From a virus: a stretch of 42,148 nucleotides of DNA. The translations under genes and the position numbers were made by a program. Shown here piece by piece: positions 921 to 40,689 of the stretch. The notes beneath the pieces are model-generated. The model worked only from the letters and a program-made list of their open reading frames with translations. It was not told where the DNA came from and searched no databases. The stretch's first letter is position 1, and each line of letters begins with the position of its first letter. The stretch lies in IMG/VR virus record IMGVR_UViG_3300024054_000029, positions 1-42,148 of that record; one strand, 5' to 3'.

Positions 921-1217
921 TTAGGAAAGCCTCACAGTCAATTTGCTTAAATTTTTATTTATGACTTCAATGTCATCAGCTGTCGCTTCTCTAACAATTT
1001 CAAGACAAGTTGCTGCTGTTGATCCACTTATAACTCTAGCGCCTGTCTTACCATTAATTACAGAGACTCTACAGGCATCTTGGTTAATCACGAGCGTTGG
1101 CTTAATATAGACATAAAGCTCATTAGTTTCAGGGTCTGGGATAGGATAAAACGCATCGTTGAAAAGCGTTAACCCAGCCGGTTTAATTTTAGCTACGTAC
1201 CATTCTGTTGATTTCAT
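921..1217 (-). CDS. Unknown protein
   Basis: 98 residues, begins MKSTEWYVAKIKPAGLTLF. Predicted beta-rich middle with a conserved-looking Tyr/Pro segment and a helical C terminus. No motif I recognise. Its ATG lies inside the 3' end of the HAD gene (overlap 29 nt), suggesting translational coupling. Confidence 0.55.
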   Translation of the reverse strand: MKSTEWYVAKIKPAGLTLFNDAFYPIPDPETNELYVYIKPTLVINQDACRVSVINGKTGARVISGSTAATCLEIVREATADDIEVINKNLSKLTVRLS

Positions 1218-1743
1218 GAACTTTACTTAAAAGTGTTTTTCTTTTTTCAACTAAAAGTTGATTAGTTTCTTGTTTTGAATGCCCTAAAAATTTCATAATT
1301 TCAAAGAAATTTTCTAGAGAAAGTCCGGCGTTATAATCAACTTTGACATAACCTACGTATTCTTCTACGATATCAGGTTCAACAAACGCGTCGTCTACGT
1401 AACAAAAATATGAATATTGGCCGCAATTTAACTTAAGCCATTTTTTAATTTCTTCGCCACGCGTTTCAGCAACTGGCGTTTTCCACTGATCACCTTCCAA
1501 TATCGTTGGATTTAAACCGTTGATTTTAAAAATATCGATAAATTGATTACGTGAAAAAGTATGGCGCCATGAAGACGCAATTACAAGCTTAGCGTAAGTA
1601 AATTCAAGCGCGTGATTTAACAGAGCGACCGCAACAGGGTCAAAACACTTGAAGGTTCCTGAACCTCCAAGATTGTAGTCAAGCAGAGCAGCTCTACCTG
1701 AAATTAGAACACCGTCAATATCAAGTATAATTATTCTGTTCAT
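1189..1743 (-). CDS. HAD-superfamily phosphatase, RNA-repair (Swiss Army Knife) type
   Basis: 184 residues. HAD motif I is DIDGV at residues 8-12 (nucleophile Asp and acid/base Asp), motif II is IASSWR near 56-61, and the acidic motif IV is VDDAF near 116-120. The DIDGV...FDP...ASSWR layout resembles the HAD domain described in Swiss Army Knife RNA-repair proteins, which are thought to remove phosphates from damaged RNA ends; that family assignment is from memory. The ATG overlaps the sspB-like stop by 4 nt (ATGA), so the two are probably co-translated. The substrate is not known. Confidence 0.72.
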   Translation of the reverse strand: MNRIIILDIDGVLISGRAALLDYNLGGSGTFKCFDPVAVALLNHALEFTYAKLVIASSWRHTFSRNQFIDIFKINGLNPTILEGDQWKTPVAETRGEEIKKWLKLNCGQYSYFCYVDDAFVEPDIVEEYVGYVKVDYNAGLSLENFFEIMKFLGHSKQETNQLLVEKRKTLLSKVHEINRMVRS

Positions 1744-2156
1744 TTGACGACTGTTAGGTGACCGCGCTTTTTGCCTTTTGGTGGTTCAGGTTCCGGTGGT
1801 TCAGGTTCCACGCTAATTTCTTCATCAGGAACTTTTTCAACGCCAAATGTTATTCCTTCTCTTGGTCCAAGCTCGTGCGGAAAAATCGCAATTACAGACT
1901 CTAATGGAATTAGCATATCAAAGTGAACGCCTTGAAAACGTGTCGAAAAATGAACACAGTTTGACGTAATGTCAACATTTTTACAAGCCGCCAATCCTAA
2001 GTTAAAAATTGCTTCTTCAGCGTTTTTTAATTTAGGTGGAATTAAAATTGGATTAATTTGTAAATCAACTACAATATATGGAGTTAACTCACTACCGAGA
2101 CACCATTCATATATTGCCTTAATCAAATGATATTTACGGCTTTTGAATTTGTTCAT
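1740..2156 (-). CDS. sspB: SspB-like ClpXP protease adaptor
   Basis: 138 residues. SspB delivers ssrA-tagged proteins from stalled ribosomes to the ClpXP protease. The substrate-binding fold opens with a recognisable SspB core: AIYEWCLGSELTPYIVVD at 14-31 (E. coli SspB has AFYEWLLDNQLTPHLVVD), then an N(L/I)...A segment, F(S/N).RF.G near 71-76 and (V/A)IAI near 88-91. Next comes an acidic, proline-rich linker (about 107-128). It ends in RGHLTVVK, closely matching the ClpX-docking tail of E. coli SspB (RPALRVVK). All three functional parts are therefore present. SspB is typical of beta- and gammaproteobacteria, and I would not expect it in a phage. The tmRNA 0.8 kb upstream encodes a matching tag. 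Confidence 0.88.
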   Translation of the reverse strand: MNKFKSRKYHLIKAIYEWCLGSELTPYIVVDLQINPILIPPKLKNAEEAIFNLGLAACKNVDITSNCVHFSTRFQGVHFDMLIPLESVIAIFPHELGPREGITFGVEKVPDEEISVEPEPPEPEPPKGKKRGHLTVVK

Positions 2157-2157
2157 T

Positions 2158-2328
2158 TTATTTACAAGTTGCTCGAACGACTGATGTTAAAATTGCTGTT
2201 GCGACCCACGTTTGAGGGGTAAATGGAATTGTTAAACTGAAAAGAGTGTTCAGTGACCAAATGATTAAAATTGGACCAACAACAATTGCTAAAATTACTA
2301 GTGTAAATATCAAAGCTGCACGTGACAT
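2158..2328 (-). CDS. Small membrane protein
   Basis: 56 residues, begins MSRAALIFTLVILAIVVGP. Two hydrophobic stretches (about 5-27 and 32-50) suggest one or two membrane segments. The stop is one base before the SspB-like ATG (2156) and the start one base after the upstream gene's stop (2330), so the spacing fits a real operon gene. Function unknown; a holin- or sensor-like role cannot be judged. Confidence 0.6.
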   Translation of the reverse strand: MSRAALIFTLVILAIVVGPILIIWSLNTLFSLTIPFTPQTWVATAILTSVVRATCK

Positions 2329-2329
2329 T

Positions 2330-2908
2330 TTATTTTTCCATAAGTATTCTCCAAAATTCCTTAACAGCTAGCGTAATTCGTCTTCGTAGGGGTTTTTTTG
2401 GATTGTATTTTTTAAGTTGTTCCCTATATCCTGCGTTAGCAGTCACTGTAAGTGCGTGACCTAAATGTTTGTTCCACCAAGCAGTGTAGGGCAGTTTGTA
2501 CATTGTTTCAGCGTAGCAGCGAGAACACGTTGCTGGAACTGCTGTACAGTCTCCACAGTGTTCTTCTGTTAGCGCGCCTTTAATGTATTCATTGAAATGC
2601 TCAAGATTGATGAATTCATTCCACCATTCATCAGCATCTTTTTCATCCCACGCATCATCAACTTCCTTGAGAGCGTTAAGAGCATATTCAGTTATTTTTT
2701 CATCAGACTGATTAACCCAATAAGAATCTTCTTTTAATCCTTCTTTGCGACGAACGTAAAGAGTAAAATTATGAAGAATTTCCCAGATTGTTTCATAAGC
2801 GTAACGAGCTTGCGCGAGCTTATGATCTTTTTCGTCGAGCGAAGGACAGACCGGTTTTAAGAAACGCTTGGCTTCCTGCTCACTGATTTCAAGTTTAAAT
2901 TTATCCAT
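2330..2908 (-). CDS. Unknown protein with a CxxC-CxxC cluster
   Basis: 192 residues, acidic and Trp-rich in the middle (DEWWNEF), with a cysteine cluster HCGDCTAVPATCSRC near 117-131 that could bind zinc, then a basic C terminus. Not a family I recognise. It is the first gene of the operon carrying the SspB-like gene. The start ATG lies only 6 nt after the TATAAT of a good early promoter, so the mRNA may be leaderless. Confidence 0.65.
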   Translation of the reverse strand: MDKFKLEISEQEAKRFLKPVCPSLDEKDHKLAQARYAYETIWEILHNFTLYVRRKEGLKEDSYWVNQSDEKITEYALNALKEVDDAWDEKDADEWWNEFINLEHFNEYIKGALTEEHCGDCTAVPATCSRCYAETMYKLPYTAWWNKHLGHALTVTANAGYREQLKKYNPKKPLRRRITLAVKEFWRILMEK

Positions 2909-2914
2909 ATGAGC

Positions 2915-2943
2915 ATTATACTAAGAAAAATTGGAGATGTACA
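2915..2943 (-). promoter_or_regulatory. Early-type promoter of the SspB operon
   Basis: Minus-strand TATAAT at 2915-2920 and TGTACA at 2938-2943, spacer 17 nt. It belongs to the recurring TTGTAC-like/TATAAT class of this window. Transcription would begin about 2908, at the ATG of the first gene. Confidence 0.7.
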
Positions 2944-2946
2944 CAC

Positions 2947-2976
2947 AAAAATGGGGAAGATTAAATCTTCCCCATT
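2947..2976 (-). terminator. Rho-independent terminator of the tmRNA
   Basis: Perfect 13-bp inverted repeat AATGGGGAAGATT / AATCTTCCCCATT around one central base (2950-2976), followed on the minus strand by a run of five T (2951-2947). It ends the tmRNA transcript just before the promoter of the next operon. Confidence 0.85.
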
Positions 2977-3014
2977 CGGTTCATTCTGTTGCTAGGCTGA
3001 ACAGCCCCGGTGGA

Positions 3015-3059
3015 TTATGCTGCGAGAGCATAATCTCCATAAAATGCGTCATTGCTTGC
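3015..3059 (-). other. tmRNA tag-peptide reading frame
   Basis: Resume codon GCA (3059-3057) to TAA (3017-3015) encodes ASNDAFYGDYALAA. An A lies 4 nt before the resume codon (TAAAT-GCA), as in E. coli (TAGTC-GCA). With the non-templated Ala the tag is 15 residues. The pattern A-x-N-D-x-x-Y matches the SspB-binding part of AANDENYALAA, and ALAA matches the ClpX-binding end. Residues GDY are inserted between them. Confidence 0.88.
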
Positions 3060-3146
3060 ATTTATAAGTTTTTCGCTGCTTAGGGCAGTCGACTATCCCG
3101 TTGTAAACATTCCTACTAATGACCACGTCGAAACTTTGTCCAGCCC

Positions 3147-3165
3147 AAATTTATTTTAAGCTATG
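3147..3165 (-). other. tmRNA intervening segment between the two pieces
   Basis: About 19 A/T-rich bases between the discriminator base of the acceptor piece (3166) and the first base of the coding piece (3146). In permuted tmRNA this loop is excised by RNase P and 3'-end nucleases. It is short compared with what I recall for bacterial examples. Confidence 0.65.
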
Positions 3166-3280
3166 TGGACTGGGCGGGTTCTGCCCCCGCGTCCGCGACC
3201 CCTTTCAGTCAGTCTTTCAAAACTTCCTGTTTACACAACGATAAAATCAGTAATGTCTTCTAAAGAAAACATTGTCAATT

Positions 3281-10175: not shown

Positions 10176-10817
10176 TTAGAGCCCATTTGGCACGATTTCA
10201 GAATGCATCCAGTGCGTATCAGTTTGAACGTGACTAGCACGAACAAACTTAGCTACTGACTGAGCAAAATCCTTATAGTGAAACCCCTTTTTCATTCTGA
10301 CCACGTAACCTTCCTGTGTTGTTGTATCCAGTCGATATTGAATTTGACGAATTTGGTCTTCGTCAAATTCACCTTGCCAAAGAATATGTACAGACGGAAT
10401 TTCGAGAAGTGAAAACCATTCTTGTGTTTCACCCCAGCTTAAACAAAAATTTTTTTCATTCCAAATTGAAAACCCACGAAATGGTATTACCAAGTTCTCA
10501 TATCTAATCGAGTGTTGAGCAAATAAGTTTTCTCCACAAACTCTCCAACCTTCAGGAAGGTCATAACAACGTTCTTGCCACCAACGCTTTACCCAATCAC
10601 GAGAAGGGTGATTTGCACTGTCAAGTGACCTGGCATGTAGATTGCCATTAGTATAAAGTGAAGTGTTCTCACCATCCATTTTTTCTGTTATGATGACATG
10701 TTGACCTTCAAAATGTTCAACATTCTTGAGCACTTTGTCATCATCAGAACGACCTAGCGACCAGGGAAGATGATAGGTGCGGGGGTATTTGACTTTACTC
10801 ATTGAAGTAACACTCAT
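10176..10817 (-). CDS. RNA ligase (T4 Rnl2/DRB0094-like)
   Basis: 213 residues. It seals 3'-OH and 5'-phosphate RNA ends through a lysyl-AMP intermediate. Motif I is EKMDGEN with Lys 46, motif III WRVCGENL (about 92-99), motif IV EGYVVRM, and motif V AKFVR. It is a compact nucleotidyltransferase domain without a clear C-terminal extension. The alternative ATG at 10802 would trim five residues. It leads a transcript from its own promoter and is the centre of the RNA-repair cluster. Confidence 0.88.
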   Translation of the reverse strand: MSVTSMSKVKYPRTYHLPWSLGRSDDDKVLKNVEHFEGQHVIITEKMDGENTSLYTNGNLHARSLDSANHPSRDWVKRWWQERCYDLPEGWRVCGENLFAQHSIRYENLVIPFRGFSIWNEKNFCLSWGETQEWFSLLEIPSVHILWQGEFDEDQIRQIQYRLDTTTQEGYVVRMKKGFHYKDFAQSVAKFVRASHVQTDTHWMHSEIVPNGL

Positions 10818-11191: not shown

Positions 11192-11530
11192 TTAAGAAAT
11201 TAAATAACGTTCAATAACGCCGCGCATTCTGGTTGAACCAACAGGATTTGCTGAGTGAACTTTTATTATAGGCGGTATCCACAAACCAAATGTTTTTTGT
11301 TCTGCCAACCATAAACAAATGTCATAACCTGTCCACTCTCTACCATCAGGAGAGAATGACGCAAGGTCATGATCTAAAGAAAGAAAATCATATTTGTATT
11401 TCTGTAAAAACTCTACTGCAGTAAAGTAATCATATACAACCGTCCAGTTCCCACAAATCTTATAGTAATCTGTAGGAACATCTCTAGTATCATCAACAAA
11501 TAGCCCGTAAAGATTAACTATGGTCACTGT
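11192..11530 (-). CDS. Cyclic-phosphate-processing receiver-like (cREC) protein
   Basis: 112 residues if started at GTG 11530; no ATG is available except one deep in the upstream gene. LYGLFVDDTRDVP, then LSLDHDL, TGYDICLW, P-P and VHSANPVG form the pattern I associate with cREC receiver domains. Comparative genomics predicts that these process 2',3'-cyclic phosphates in RNA repair; this is remembered, not searched. VDD and LDHD are the likely metal or catalytic residues. Its location between RNA ligase and 2H phosphoesterase supports the role. Confidence 0.68.
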   Translation of the reverse strand, partial: TVTIVNLYGLFVDDTRDVPTDYYKICGNWTVVYDYFTAVEFLQKYKYDFLSLDHDLASFSPDGREWTGYDICLWLAEQKTFGLWIPPIIKVHSANPVGSTRMRGVIERYLIS

Positions 11531-11732
11531 TTGTGATTTTCTCTTCAAGCCTATATATTTCAATGGCTGATAGAACCGCATCAACACGAGTTTTTAGTCG
11601 ACGCAATTGATATTCATGACTATCAATTGATTGAAAATCATTCCATTCTCCATTTTCTATAGCATCGATATCATAACCATGTGCAACTTTGTTCGCAAGT
11701 TCTTGAATATCTTCTAAAAGTGTGTTGATCAT
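11514..11732 (-). CDS. Unknown small helical protein
   Basis: 72 residues, begins MINTLLEDIQELANKVAHGY, acidic and helical. Its ATG overlaps the stop of the 2H-phosphoesterase gene by one base, so the two are coupled. No domain recognised. Confidence 0.55.
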   Translation of the reverse strand: MINTLLEDIQELANKVAHGYDIDAIENGEWNDFQSIDSHEYQLRRLKTRVDAVLSAIEIYRLEEKITNSDHS

Positions 11733-12190
11733 TAATTTTCCTCTGTTTTAGCAATTGTAATGTGGAAAGTAAATTCTCGGCCTTTAGCATCTTCAGATTT
11801 TAAGCCAAGTTCCTTTCTGATTTCATTCAAGCGATGAGAGCGAACTCGTACCATAAAAAACTTGTCACGAAAACCAAGCTCACGAGTAGCTTCGATTTTG
11901 TGTTGATACTCTAAAATAATTCGCTCGCCATTATACTTGCCCCAAAGCTCTTTATTAAGAGGCTCCTCGCCGCGAATGACGCTGACGTGAGACCCCCAGG
12001 CTGGTTGTAAGTAACGTCTCTTGTACCCATTGGCTTCCCAATGCCACCAGAATTTTTCAAGCCACCAACGATAGTAGTTGGCAATTTCTGGACAGGTATT
12101 AACAACAGCCCACCAAACTGTACGGTTTTTCATCTTTCCACGATTTGGATCGTAAATTAACGTACCGGTTGTTTTGAACCAAGTAGACAT
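11732..12190 (-). CDS. 2H phosphoesterase-like protein
   Basis: 152 residues from ATG 12190 (AGGTGA 8 nt upstream). Two H-x-S/T-x motifs, HVSV (about 68-71) and HITI (about 144-147), are spaced as in 2H phosphoesterases, which open 2',3'-cyclic phosphates on RNA. The first half is Trp-rich (WWLEKFWWHW). It starts the operon that continues with the cREC protein; RNA ligase and RlaP-like genes are close, so an RNA end-healing role is likely. The catalytic activity itself is inferred. Confidence 0.65.
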   Translation of the reverse strand: MSTWFKTTGTLIYDPNRGKMKNRTVWWAVVNTCPEIANYYRWWLEKFWWHWEANGYKRRYLQPAWGSHVSVIRGEEPLNKELWGKYNGERIILEYQHKIEATRELGFRDKFFMVRVRSHRLNEIRKELGLKSEDAKGREFTFHITIAKTEEN

Positions 12191-12220
12191 CACTATTCAC
12201 CTAAAGTTAGCTGTTGTTAA

Positions 12221-13862: not shown

Positions 13863-14882
13863 TTAATTGTGTTCAATATCGTAAAAGAGTCTAAGCCAGT
13901 CGACTAACCATTCGTAAAACTGACGTTTAAGATTATCGTCCTTAAATGGTAAGTTAGTAATTTGCTGCGCGTTCGTAACACGTTCATTTAGCTCCTCAAA
14001 TTCTGCCTTAACCCTGTCGAATGGAATTTTTCCATTTTTGATATCTAGAAGATGCTTGGCGCTTTCACGTGGGAAATTAATTTTACCTACCGTTAAAATT
14101 TCTAGCGCTTCTTCAGTGATGCGGATGGCGTGTGAAAGCGCCTTCCAGTCAACTTCATCACCCTGTGATTTACGAACTCGCTCTCCATATTTATCACGAA
14201 GCCCCTTCATTGCGTTTAAAAAATGCCCAACTTTTGTCGTAAGAGCATAAGTGCGATTATTAACAGACAGCGCTGGCATCTTATCGTAACCGGTTTTTGT
14301 GTCTTTTATTTCTGTCATGAAGATAAATTCTGACTGCAACTTTGTCAGCTTTGATTCAATTGACCCAAGCGTGTTAGAAACATCCAGTAATCCCTCTGTA
14401 AGTTCATGTTCAATGAGCTCAATAATTGCTTCAACCGAGTTTAACCTGCTGGCGCGAGCACCATAAAGCTCTGCTTGGCTCATAGCGTACTGAATCATCT
14501 TTGTGATATCATCCGTTAAGAAGTCATTAATTAACTCATGACAGAATTCAACAATTCGAGCATCATAACAATTAACAAACTGTTTGTTTTCGTTATTGCT
14601 AAACGCTATAACAAAAGCAGATTCAATTGCGTATGTTTGCCCTTCAAAGAAGTGTTCCGCAAAAGTTTTGAGCGGAACAAATTCATATTCCGACTCATCG
14701 GCGGGCATGATGTCATCGTCGCTCACACCTTCAGGCCGCTTCTTAATGATAGCTGAACGTCGTTCAAGAAGAACTTGATTGAGGTCAGGGATGTAAATTA
14801 CCTTAAAGTCACGGTCTGATGTTGGCGTGGAAGTACCAAACAGGTGGGAGCCACTAACAATTTCTGCAAGTAAATTTTTCAT
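13863..14882 (-). CDS. RlaP-like nucleotidyltransferase (pol-beta fold)
   Basis: 339 residues from ATG 14882; a TTG five codons upstream is less likely. SGSHLFGTSTPTSDRDFKVI near 10-29 is the GSx9-10DxD signature of polymerase-beta-type nucleotidyltransferases, with the two metal-binding Asp in SDRD. The remainder is helical. Large phages and bacteria carry this family beside RNA ligases, and it has been proposed to add nucleotides during RNA repair. Here it has its own early promoter. Confidence 0.8.
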   Translation of the reverse strand: MKNLLAEIVSGSHLFGTSTPTSDRDFKVIYIPDLNQVLLERRSAIIKKRPEGVSDDDIMPADESEYEFVPLKTFAEHFFEGQTYAIESAFVIAFSNNENKQFVNCYDARIVEFCHELINDFLTDDITKMIQYAMSQAELYGARASRLNSVEAIIELIEHELTEGLLDVSNTLGSIESKLTKLQSEFIFMTEIKDTKTGYDKMPALSVNNRTYALTTKVGHFLNAMKGLRDKYGERVRKSQGDEVDWKALSHAIRITEEALEILTVGKINFPRESAKHLLDIKNGKIPFDRVKAEFEELNERVTNAQQITNLPFKDDNLKRQFYEWLVDWLRLFYDIEHN

Positions 14883-14917
14883 TTGAATTCTATCCAAGTA
14901 ATAATTCTCTTGAACAA

Positions 14918-37536: not shown

Positions 37537-37565
37537 ATTATAACAAGAAATCAGCTGTTGTACAC
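37537..37565 (-). promoter_or_regulatory. Early-type promoter of gene 32
   Basis: TATAAT at 37537-37542 and GTGTAC at 37560-37565, 17-nt spacer. The -35 lies in the last codons of the upstream gene. Confidence 0.6.
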
Positions 37566-38732
37566 TACTTTGTAGTGCTTAGCAGCAGATTTTTGAAAGT
37601 TTCCATCAAATATTACGTACGCTTCATCAACCTCGCTTCCAACTCGCGGCTGACTAATAGCGTAGTATTGCTGCGTTACACTCTCAACTGGTACTTCCTT
37701 ATCATCACGCAACAATTGACGCTCAATTACCGTAGAAAGCGCAATCGGAAATTCCATTGAAACAATGAAATAATTGCGCTTGCGAAGCTCTGCAACATAG
37801 AACGCGCGAGACTTTCTGGTCGAGTTCACGTTGTCAATAACCAAATCGTGACCAGCGTTCATTAATCCAATAAAACGAGCTCTCCAAAACTGGTCAAATT
37901 CTTTTGACTTTTCCATTGTGCAATACTTCCAAGCGAGTGCGTAATCACGCTTAGAATTATTTGATGTCTTAAAACCTGACGTAAAGTAAAACTCCAAGCG
38001 AAGCTCATCGAGTGAAAAAATCTTGGCATTAGTAGCCAATTGACGGGCATACGTGGACTTACCAGCACCAGAAGGACCAATCAAAAATGTAGCAATCTTA
38101 TGATTTGCCGGCTGCGGTTGCTCAACTATTCTGTAAGACAAAGGTTCCAAAGTAACAAACTCGGCAATCCATTGCTCGACCTTTGAGAGCTTCGCTTCAT
38201 GATCATCAGAGATGCGGCCTCTTGCGTCAGAGCGCAAAACATCTAAGAACATTTGCAACGCTCCCAGACCGTGTGAATGACAATCAGTTATCAAAGCGCG
38301 ACACTTTTGGTTATCCTTAATGTCGTACGGAAGATGATTTTCAATCAACCACTTAATCAAACGCCACTCATTGCTGTCAAAGCGAAGTTCAGCCATAAGT
38401 TCGGGGTTTGTCATCATGAAATCTTCAAACACTCGAGCTGAAACAGGTTCATGACCACCAAAAGTTTGATAGTTGCCACGGCTGTCACTGTACTTTTCTT
38501 GACGTGACAGCGGCTTTCCAGCATCATGAAAAAGCAGAGCTGTCATCGTGATAAGCTCCATCCGTTGGGTGCGGTGCGGCCCAATGTTTACGCAGTATGA
38601 GTCAAGTGTCATCAACGTGTGCTTCCACACATTTTCCTCACGATGATACGGGCTGTTTTCACGAATAGAACGCATGTTATGCGCAATTGAGCTCGAGGTG
38701 AGAGCAATGTAGAGCTTGTTAAAAAGTTCCAT
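37551..38732 (-). CDS. HD-domain phosphohydrolase fused to polynucleotide kinase
   Basis: 393 residues from ATG 38732 (GAGGA upstream). N-terminal HD domain: His in VWKHTL (38), HD in LLFHDAGKPL (69-70), His in GGHEP and the distal Asp in RSDARGR (169). C-terminal P-loop kinase: GPSGAGKSTYAR (219-230) and LVIDNVNSTRKSR, as in the kinase half of T4 PseT/Pnkp. PseT joins kinase and HAD phosphatase; here the phosphatase slot is an HD domain at the other end. A 5'-kinase and a phosphatase in one protein suit end healing before RNA or DNA ligation. Confidence 0.82.
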   Translation of the reverse strand: MELFNKLYIALTSSSIAHNMRSIRENSPYHREENVWKHTLMTLDSYCVNIGPHRTQRMELITMTALLFHDAGKPLSRQEKYSDSRGNYQTFGGHEPVSARVFEDFMMTNPELMAELRFDSNEWRLIKWLIENHLPYDIKDNQKCRALITDCHSHGLGALQMFLDVLRSDARGRISDDHEAKLSKVEQWIAEFVTLEPLSYRIVEQPQPANHKIATFLIGPSGAGKSTYARQLATNAKIFSLDELRLEFYFTSGFKTSNNSKRDYALAWKYCTMEKSKEFDQFWRARFIGLMNAGHDLVIDNVNSTRKSRAFYVAELRKRNYFIVSMEFPIALSTVIERQLLRDDKEVPVESVTQQYYAISQPRVGSEVDEAYVIFDGNFQKSAAKHYKVVYNS

Positions 38733-39003
38733 TATGTTCCTCAATCAACATTTCAATTAACGAAAGCGCTTCATCTGTTGTAACGGTTTGGTAAAAAATG
38801 CCTTCAAATGAAATTAAAATTTCATAATTAGGCATAAGTTGTAAATAGAGTGTTACCGTTTGGTTATTTCTACAAACGTCTAAGTGAACTGAAGTAGGCG
38901 TAAAACGACTTTCATAAATGAAATCATGACGAAGTCTCAGAGTAAGTGAAATGTCGTCAATGATTTCAATTCTAGCGTCAGGCCCAGCCATATCAGTGTT
39001 CAT
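38719..39003 (-). CDS. Unknown protein, possible leaderless mRNA
   Basis: 94 residues from ATG 39003, begins MNTDMAGPDARIEIIDDISL, beta-rich. The ATG lies 6 nt after TATAAT, so the transcript would have almost no leader; the next in-frame ATG (39 or so bases on) also lacks a Shine-Dalgarno. Overlaps the HD-kinase gene by 14 nt. Confidence 0.55.
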   Translation of the reverse strand: MNTDMAGPDARIEIIDDISLTLRLRHDFIYESRFTPTSVHLDVCRNNQTVTLYLQLMPNYEILISFEGIFYQTVTTDEALSLIEMLIEEHNGTF

Positions 39004-39076: not shown

Positions 39077-39631
39077 TTATTTTATGGTAACAACTTCATC
39101 GTTTTTTCTCAACTCTGACACAATTTGATTGGCTGTGGCGAAACCATCAATACGAGTCCAAGTACTTTCACCAGGTCGATGAATAATGGTTAACGGCTGG
39201 TGATTCATTTTATCACCAAAATAAGCGTGAAATGCTTTTTCAATTTGAATAATTTGATCAAAGGTTCCAGTGTAAAAATTCCAACCTGGTTGCGTCTTTA
39301 ATTTTTTCATATGTTCCTGTAAGACGCTAACAGTGTCATTTTCAGGGTCAATTGAAAATGAAATGAGATGAACTTTCGAAGCGTCCTCGCCTAATTGCTT
39401 CTGAACTGCTACAAACGTGCGGCTTAACGCAGGACAAATGCCAGCGCACGTGGTAAAAACAAAATTGATGGCAATGGGTTTGTACCCCATTGTTTCATCT
39501 TTGATATTTATCTTTACGCCATCGTCACGAAAAATCATTAACTCAGGGATATCATACGTAGCGGTTGAAACATTAGGACTACTGGCAAAAGCAAGATTTG
39601 AAAGAAATAACATCATCAAAAATTTAAGCAT
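39077..39631 (-). CDS. SCO1/SenC-type copper protein, secreted
   Basis: 184 residues from ATG 39631 (AGAGG 8 nt upstream). Signal peptide MLKFLMMLFLSNLAFA with cleavage after AFA. Thioredoxin-like fold with TTCAGICPALSRTF (CxxxC copper/redox site), then SIDPENDTVSVLQEHM and a His region (NHQPLTIIHRPGESTW) as in SCO proteins, which deliver copper to cytochrome oxidase. A SCO protein is not, to my knowledge, a usual phage gene; probably acquired from a host. Confidence 0.85.
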   Translation of the reverse strand: MLKFLMMLFLSNLAFASSPNVSTATYDIPELMIFRDDGVKINIKDETMGYKPIAINFVFTTCAGICPALSRTFVAVQKQLGEDASKVHLISFSIDPENDTVSVLQEHMKKLKTQPGWNFYTGTFDQIIQIEKAFHAYFGDKMNHQPLTIIHRPGESTWTRIDGFATANQIVSELRKNDEVVTIK

Positions 39632-39654
39632 CTTAATAACCTCTTTTTTATCAT

Positions 39655-40689
39655 TCATTTCATCAAAACTAAACCATCTTTAAATTGCTGAGTAGCTATT
39701 TCCCACGTAAAATTGTCAAGCACATACTGACGAGGAACTTCATTTTTATAATATTCACAATAATAATTAATTGCGGCTCCTATTTCATTATCGCTTTCTA
39801 CAAGAGTTCCTACGTTTGATAGATACCCCTTTAAGTATGCTGGCAATACATCACCAGGACCAGGCACGTTAAACGCAACCACTGGCGTTCCGCTTGCTAA
39901 AGCCTCAAGAGTTACCAAACCAAACGTATCAGTTTTTGATGGAAAAACTACTACCTTAGCAGAAGCATAAAAATTAGCTAAGTCTGTTGAATGCTTAGCT
40001 CCAACAAATATTATACTATCACATTTATATTGCTTTTTATACTGTTCAAGTTGCGGGCCATCACCGACAACTATTTTTAAAAATGCTGTTTTTGCATTTA
40101 AAAAAGCTTCAATATTTTTTTCACTTGAAACTCGACCTACATAAAGAGCAAACGGTGGTCCTTTTTTATAATCGCGTGAAGGATTAAAAAGATCAATATC
40201 GACACCACGAGACCAGCGCCAAAATTGGTTTTGAAAGCCTCGAGCTTTCAATTCATTTTCAAGTGATTCTGTTGCGACAAAGACGCGAGAAGCAGGTTTA
40301 TGAAACCATTTGAAGTATTTGTAAGTTAAGCTGGCAGGAACACTTAACTTATTTTCAATATATTCAGGAAACTTTGTATGATATGCGGTTGTAAATCTGA
40401 GATTATTTTTAACGCAGTAACAGCGGGCTAAAAGCCCTAAAGGACCTTCAGTTGCAATGTGAATAAAATCTGGTTTTGCGTGCTTTATTCGTGTTGCTAA
40501 TCGTTTCATTCCAGGCCAAGCTAACTTAATTTCAGGATAAGTTGGGCAAGGAAATGTTTTAAACATCTCTGGATGAATTACTGTAATATTAAAATGAGCA
40601 GAAAGCCCATCAATAGTTTTTTCAAGTGTACGAACTACGCCTGATACTTGAGGTCTAAACGCATCAGTTACAATTAGCAATTTTGTCAT
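39655..40689 (-). CDS. Glycosyltransferase family 4 (GT-B)
   Basis: 344 residues. Transfers a sugar from a nucleotide sugar. N-terminal lobe DAFRPQVSGVVRTLEKTIDGLS, then YVGRVSSEKNIEAF and the donor-binding motif GLVTLEALASGTPVVAF (E-x7-E type) in the C-terminal lobe. It resembles bacterial alpha-mannosyltransferases acting on lipids or polysaccharides. Its stop is next to the SCO gene; the two form an operon. Might modify host surface or phage particle; donor unknown. Confidence 0.85.
   Translation of the reverse strand: MTKLLIVTDAFRPQVSGVVRTLEKTIDGLSAHFNITVIHPEMFKTFPCPTYPEIKLAWPGMKRLATRIKHAKPDFIHIATEGPLGLLARCYCVKNNLRFTTAYHTKFPEYIENKLSVPASLTYKYFKWFHKPASRVFVATESLENELKARGFQNQFWRWSRGVDIDLFNPSRDYKKGPPFALYVGRVSSEKNIEAFLNAKTAFLKIVVGDGPQLEQYKKQYKCDSIIFVGAKHSTDLANFYASAKVVVFPSKTDTFGLVTLEALASGTPVVAFNVPGPGDVLPAYLKGYLSNVGTLVESDNEIGAAINYYCEYYKNEVPRQYVLDNFTWEIATQQFKDGLVLMK

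Follow-up and report, generated by a model that had tools for sequence, protein, structure and literature searches.

A bacteriophage locus carrying both a permuted tmRNA gene and a divergent SspB homologue, probably as separate additions

Phage SspB and phage permuted transfer-messenger RNA (tmRNA) have each already been published, separately and with guesses at their purpose. According to the part of the study available, a tmRNA of any form is present in 402 of 18,146 phages (PMC9004378), and the word "SspB" occurs nowhere in the main text of that paper. The SspB of phage pf16 was modelled by its authors on RseA, and the available part of their article reports no tmRNA (PMC5587285), while gp039 of Erwinia phage RAY was described as cytoplasmic and suggested to aid replication or to overcome defence (PMC10299810). 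In addition, a survey of 224 jumbo phages described HAD-SAK proteins, cREC, RNA ligases and tRNAs as countering host attacks on translation (PMC7824862); neither "SspB" nor "tmRNA" occurs in its main text. Among the papers listed by searches of the open-licence PMC literature, none announced a phage with both tmRNA and SspB in its title or abstract start. In this study, we analyzed a 42,148-base virus record (IMG/VR record IMGVR_UViG_3300024054_000029, the whole of which is hereafter called the window) which carries both genes on its minus strand, and our analyses suggested that tmRNA and SspB are here two intact-looking parts of one pathway. The two genes and the elements of the tmRNA are listed below.

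1740..2156, minus strand: SspB-like ClpXP adaptor of 138 amino acids with the C-terminal tail KKRGHLTVVK (Pfam, PHROG, PDB sequence and fold matches, conserved columns)
2924..3255, minus strand: permuted two-piece tmRNA (ssrA) of alpha type (ARAGORN and Rfam)
3166..3190, minus strand: acceptor piece of the tmRNA, T stem-loop and 3' acceptor strand to discriminator A73 (sequence match)
3126..3146, minus strand: coding piece of the tmRNA, 5' acceptor strand and conserved stretch, GGGCTGG...TTTCGACG (sequence match, Rfam alignment)
3015..3059, minus strand: tag reading frame, ASNDAFYGDYALAA followed by a stop, with resume codon GCA (ARAGORN, translation)

The tmRNA gene appears intact. ARAGORN, RF04321 and RF01849 agreed on its presence, as an earlier note on this DNA had held without mentioning that it is of the permuted kind. 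RF04321 (tmRNA_permuted) matched positions 3224-3015 with 97.1 bits (E=8.7e-18, cut-off 47 bits) and RF01849 (alpha_tmRNA) matched 3275-2974 with 67.9 bits (E=1.3e-16, cut-off 50 bits), scores far above chance, and these two tmRNA models were the only matches in an Rfam scan of the window at the gathering threshold. The 3' acceptor strand pairs with 3146-3140 at all seven positions, the third being G-U; the tRNA-like domain has the alanine identity pair G3-U70 and an Ala-type acceptor stem. The tag frame is complete, with resume codon, stop and a hydrophobic LAA-type end. The CCA end is not encoded, A73 being followed by CATAG (3166-3161, minus strand), whereas CCA is encoded in all six other phage permuted tmRNAs aligned; an encoded CCA is a usual feature of permuted tmRNA and not a strictly defining one. 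Since CCA is not encoded, host CCA addition would be needed if the tmRNA works, and host enzymes can add CCA. Additionally, no SmpB match was found in G001, a 197-kb IMG/VR record that holds the entire window in reverse plus the same tmRNA, or in any of the 17 records searched; from its absence in G001, host SmpB would be needed as well.

The SspB homologue was matched by Pfam family PF04386 over residues 8-138 (52.8 bits, E=6e-14, cut-off 27) and by PHROG 8945, "SspB-like", and all ten solved-structure sequences at E<=10 were SspB (best E=1.2e-17). An AlphaFold model built from a 7-row alignment reached a predicted local distance difference test score of 77, with low confidence in the linker and tail. 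Among its top 19 PDB fold matches, 17 carry SspB or SspB orthologue in the title and the other two are Agrobacterium AGR_C_3712; ssrA-bound SspB structures are among the best. The tail GHLTVVK fits the L-x-x-x-K ending, predicted to be of the ClpX-docking type, that 78 of the 80 bacterial SspB rows share. The family match, fold and tail bear out the proposal of an SspB-like adaptor with an intact tail of the ClpX-docking type.

The bacterial rows were 80 kept of at least 568 matches from genome contigs. From the 86 SspB rows made, L228 and L250, the two bacterial rows not ending in L-x-x-x-K as read by script, were left out of both the tree and the column count; tblastn matched the two up to query residue 138, which makes a frame problem more probable for them than a missing tail. 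Compared with the 78 aligned bacterial rows, the window SspB keeps 25 of 35 near-invariant columns, and it has R73 and F74, which every one of the 78 shares. The same 35 columns are kept at 31 positions in pf16, 12 in phiKZ, 16 in Ea35-70, 15 in LucasX and 16 in SNUABM_54, the phiKZ and LucasX rows having been trimmed before their ends prior to the count. All nine NCBIfam equivalog models that matched the window SspB did so below their cut-offs (best 94.5 vs 135 bits, PRK11798 models). It therefore passes Pfam but fails NCBIfam equivalog, which makes it a divergent member of the Pfam family. In the tree of 84 rows its end branch measured 4.36 against a median of 0.29, and the starred branches cannot be explained with fewer than two changes of the phage label. 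The best bacterial rows listed were beta- and gammaproteobacterial, with no more than 40% identity to the window SspB.

Host assignment from the tree was tried and abandoned because the very long window branch joins other long phage branches, a join flagged as possibly false. An alpha-type tmRNA and best SspB rows from beta- and gammaproteobacteria do not point to one donor, which is weak evidence. Separately, we observed that PHIKZ232 of phiKZ (L005:2971-3879) is a protein of 302 amino acids with an SspB-like N-terminal domain, and that its end, PKLTVIKGGKK, is docking-tail-like.

The window tag ASNDAFYGDYALAA keeps N-D-x-x-Y in E. coli spacing (AANDENY becoming ASNDAFY) and ends in ALAA, with three extra residues (GDY) before ALAA relative to E. 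coli. The tag thus keeps the residues that SspB reads, as had been claimed, and the pattern is common to other viral tags: among 35 distinct tags called by ARAGORN in 48 other viral records, ND..[YF] occurred in 22, with tyrosine in 11, and an ALAA end in 19. In E. coli, delivery is unimpaired when four residues are inserted after the SspB-binding part and before ALAA, and the KM given for AANDENYSENYALAA in the available part of that study is 0.48 vs 0.47 uM with SspB (PMC8512704). Since such an insert is harmless in E. coli, the extra GDY should not hinder delivery. Heterologous SspB can also interact with ClpX of bacteria that are without the adaptor, according to the part of the article available (PMC12373786). 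Binding of the window tag by the window SspB is plausible, the tag pattern being compatible with it.

The arrangement of tmRNA and sspB is repeated in two further IMG/VR records, with 0 and 2 mismatches across 8156 bp: the first 8156 bases of the window are identical in G001 (197,099 bases) and 99.98% identical in the third record. It is therefore not an assembly accident of the window. The three records are one species and provide no independent evidence. A search of 50,697 phage records for close DNA matches to the window's first 20 kb found none. The tail sheath and UvsX of G001 are closest to those of jumbo phages, such as XacN1, Stenotrophomonas CM1/RAS14, PA5oct and Atu_ph07, and we call it T4-like because of this resemblance. 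XacN1, Phosso and IMG/VR record G003, a 97.8-kb fragment that is a syntenic relative, are related to G001 through tail sheath and/or UvsX. All three carry a permuted tmRNA over the cut-off; ARAGORN agreed for G003 and XacN1 and found none at the Phosso locus.

Two side observations concern phage tmRNA more generally. In XacN1 the permuted tmRNA was found at two places with equal score, 37231 and 356026 (locus L194, with tag ANANTFDYALAA, and locus L196), and the duplicate is probably a long repeat. In Erythrobacter phage vB_EliS-L02 (L032:1440-2764) a permuted tmRNA is the last element of a tRNA cluster. Some 0.5 kb further on is a gene with the annotation proteasome subunit alpha/beta, for which no Pfam match was found.

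Co-occurrence of the two genes was examined in both directions. No tmRNA exceeded the Rfam cut-off (RF00023, RF04321) in any of 13 other phages that encode SspB or a protein of SspB-like fold. These comprised pf16, phiKZ, Ea35-70, LucasX and SNUABM_54, together with eight that are SspB-like by fold (phiA8-29, VAP7, 201phi2-1, PhiPA3, Noxifer, Phabio, PhiEaH1 and Psa21, the last at E=2.8e-3), the eight being picked from recognised names among the matches and not all matches. Conversely, PF04386 matched none of 52 other tmRNA-bearing viral records, namely 48 from a pattern scan plus G003, Erythrobacter phage L02, XacN1 and Phosso; the 52 include fragments and near copies of each other and are not 52 lineages. 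G003 gave no SspB match in its 97.8 kb, and SspB was found in 0 of the 10 records of at least 100 kb among the 48. Among 13 jumbo relatives, permuted tmRNA was present in two and PF04386 in none.

The 48 records derive from at least 120 stretches matching the pattern, of which 80 loci were listed, 32 were dropped and 48 had an ARAGORN tmRNA. The pattern favours canonical tmRNAs and would have missed that of the window itself; the 48 possibly include host ssrA genes that neighbour prophages, and some of the ARAGORN calls (L088) seem doubtful. Only tmRNA matches over the Rfam cut-off were counted, control genomes giving signals below it for other reasons: across 14 control genomes, RF04321 was over the cut-off in one and gave some signal in 5 to 9, and RF00023 was over the cut-off in nine and gave some signal in all 14, archaea included. 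Sub-threshold RF00023 signals appeared in phiKZ (two matches of about 13 bits) and in 11 of the 13 jumbo relatives; the sub-threshold match in phiA8-29, the only one checked, was rejected as a tmRNA, being tRNA-Tyr. The scans of the 13 jumbo relatives and of the eight fold-chosen phages used stricter Infernal filters, with which some weak matches are lost. For SspB, the PF04386 profile recovered all five sequence-known phage SspBs at E<=0.01, phiKZ and SNUABM_54 falling below Pfam's own cut-off, so that relatives recognisable by fold alone can escape it, and among the 14 controls only E. coli and Caulobacter gave a signal.

Several candidate phage SspBs were excluded. Among these, two Salmonella and two Acinetobacter records look like host sequence, the Acinetobacter record that was opened having rpsI and sspA alongside. 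Four IMG/VR contigs (L023-L026) were treated as host-like, with sspB at the contig end and, by eye, an integrase-like ORF (open reading frame) nearby. The presence of this ORF near a host-type sspB suggests a prophage integration site. An SspA-like ORF, again by eye, lies upstream of the host-type sspB in L024 and L025.

These counts bear on the claim that independent acquisition of both genes by chance is unlikely, which we could not sustain: by a rough estimate, the chance of at least one tmRNA among 14 SspB phages is 27% at the published rate of 402/18,146 and 90% at the relatives' rate of 2/13. The earlier note had also named a lack of co-occurrence in relatives as evidence against coupling, and no co-occurrence was found.

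Along the minus strand, the order is tmRNA, predicted terminator, an ORF of 192 amino acids, an ORF of 56 amino acids, sspB, HAD_SAK_2 and small ORFs. The description of the adaptor as lying "next to" the tmRNA has to be amended: both are on one strand, but 767 bp separate them, with two ORFs and the predicted terminator in this interval. The features between and around the two genes are as follows.

2949..2977, minus strand: predicted intrinsic terminator right after the tmRNA, 13-bp stem and 3-nt loop (fold -18.4 kcal/mol, z -3.97)
2915..2943, minus strand: sigma-70-like promoter match TGTACA-17-TATAAT before the next gene (weak: 30 such sites vs 25.9 expected in the first 7 kb)
2330..2908, minus strand: 192-amino-acid ORF between tmRNA and sspB, no confident family
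2158..2328, minus strand: hydrophobic ORF of 56 amino acids in the same interval, matched by neither Pfam nor PHROG
1189..1743, minus strand: HAD_SAK_2 protein of Swiss-army-knife RNA-repair type (PF18143, E=2.4e-18), 4-nt overlap with the end of sspB
10176..10817, minus strand: RNA ligase (PF09414, E=4.9e-28)
11192..11587, minus strand: cREC cyclic-phosphate-processing receiver domain (PF20274, E=5.9e-21)
11732..12193, minus strand: 2H phosphoesterase of Swiss-army-knife type (PF22547, E=2.2e-6, 28.4 bits vs cut-off 27)
13863..14897, minus strand: RlaP-like nucleotidyltransferase (PF10127, E=1.3e-7, 32 bits vs 23; no single stretch passes alone)
37551..38744, minus strand: HD domain and P-loop kinase domain, possibly RNA repair (PF13671, E=3.1e-10; PF01966, E=1.1e-4)

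The RNA ligase, cREC, 2H, RlaP-like and HD-kinase genes form, along with HAD_SAK_2, a set of RNA-repair type. In the 197-kb record, ten tRNA genes lie 4.2-6.5 kb past the tmRNA. As a separate observation, a SCO1/SenC-type protein adjoins a family-4 glycosyltransferase at 39077-40689 (minus strand), both being host-like genes in a phage. The predicted terminator speaks against one tmRNA-sspB transcription unit. Together with the absence of co-occurrence (0/13 and 0/52), this terminator-like hairpin leaves the idea of a "coupled" module unsupported.

We consider it rather probable that the phage contributes two separate components of the host pathway for ribosome rescue and tag disposal, presumably gained and transcribed separately and forming no obligate pair. 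Both genes are most likely separate add-ons to a phage kit for RNA repair and translation rescue that uses host SmpB and ClpXP. During infection, host or phage RNases would cut mRNA and tRNA; the phage tmRNA, together with host SmpB, alanyl-tRNA synthetase, CCA-adding enzyme and EF-Tu, would free stalled ribosomes and append the tag. The phage SspB would then bind phage tags, host tags of the N-D-x-x-Y type and possibly other proteins, and its tail would tether tagged proteins to host ClpX, so that ribosomes and amino acids stay in use. The predicted terminator, the lack of co-occurrence and G003, with tmRNA and without an SspB match, support the separateness of the two genes, and the sspB/HAD_SAK_2 overlap, the RNA-repair-type genes and the ten tRNA genes support the kit context. 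Several points weigh against this explanation. Binding, expression and degradation are predictions for this system, and in an SspB this divergent the tag-binding site may be altered. Co-expression of tmRNA and sspB could still arise if transcription runs through the terminator or starts from a promoter common to both. A missing SspB match, whether in a fragment or through limited sensitivity of PF04386, is no proof that the gene is absent; the viral fold matches at E<=0.001, 20 in number, have only 12-24% identity to the window SspB. Furthermore, only one species has both genes, which says nothing on how the pair is kept.

Other explanations were weighed against the same evidence. A possible, though distinctly less probable, one is that SspB has nothing to do with the tmRNA and serves host takeover, its substrates being untagged proteins, for example defence proteins or host regulators such as RseA. 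It would fit the occurrence of SspB or its fold in 13 other phages without a tmRNA over the cut-off, the SspB-RseA complex 1yfn among the best fold matches, and, from the parts of the two reports available, the RseA-based model in tmRNA-less pf16 (PMC5587285) and the role in replication or overcoming defence suggested for RAY gp039 (PMC10299810). However, the window SspB keeps R73 and F74, the phage has a compatible tag, and no untagged substrate of it is known. We regard as unlikely the coupled phage-owned module of the earlier note, in which the adaptor would be tailored to the tag of the phage itself and selection would hold the pair together. In three records of one species, both genes are intact and lie 767 bp from each other on one strand; A-x-N-D-x-x-Y and ALAA are retained in the tag, and tyrosine occurs in only 11 of the 35 distinct viral tags compared; and of the five other phage SspBs, four keep fewer near-invariant columns than that of the window. 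These points are countered by the absence of tmRNA from all 13 SspB(-like) phages and of PF04386 from all 52 tmRNA records, by the terminator and two ORFs between the genes, and by the syntenic relative G003 with tmRNA alone. Still more doubtful is a private disposal line, in which the longer tag would set the adaptor site SNDAFY apart from the ClpX site ALAA and the divergent SspB would have co-evolved to favour the phage tag, so that phage-tagged proteins reach host ClpXP before host-tagged ones.

That one or both genes are recent or decaying acquisitions without function seems very improbable: SspB was not found in any relative tested and has a long branch, but the frame is open over 138 codons, the C-terminal tail is kept despite divergence, and the tmRNA exceeds both Rfam cut-offs. 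A decoy or inhibitor of host trans-translation, in place of a working tmRNA, is the least probable explanation for that gene, even though the tag-less tmRNA of phage DS6A was reported, in the part of the article available, to inhibit endogenous tmRNA in E. coli (PMC11915505). The window tmRNA has a full tag frame, all acceptor pairs with the third G-U, and the conserved 3' part. Its lack of an encoded CCA, present in six of six other phage permuted tmRNAs, would fit a decoy, but CCA can be added by host enzymes.

One phage with both genes, amid RNA-repair genes, offers a single system for swapping and testing tag and adaptor. That tmRNA and SspB are usually carried apart in the phages compared suggests that phage SspB often serves something besides phage tmRNA. 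SspB annotation is present in several records for the phage SspBs of pf16 and the Erwinia Agricanvirus phages (Ea35-70, RAY gp039) and for the phiKZ-like SspB-like proteins. The SspBs of pf16 (gp18), phiKZ, Ea35-70 and SNUABM_54 share the docking-type tail with the window SspB, LucasX being without it; unlike the window phage, all five have no tmRNA over the cut-off. XacN1, Phosso and G003 resemble the window phage in being related to it and in having a permuted tmRNA, and differ in giving no PF04386 match. The marine methylophage Melnitz, called T4-like by its authors, and other aquatic phages carry, like the window, a phage-borne two-piece alpha tmRNA; the 3' domain of Melnitz ssrA holds a predicted glutamine riboswitch, as described in the part of the report available (PMC9004378), whereas the window scan gave only two tmRNA models. 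Compared with bacterial SspB (PF04386; 1ou8, 1ox9, 8et3), the window SspB differs in its identity of at most 40% to the rows compared, its short linker, its phage-borne location and its scores below the nine NCBIfam equivalog cut-offs, and it shares with them the core fold, R73-F74, a proline/acidic linker and the C-terminal L-x-x-x-K.

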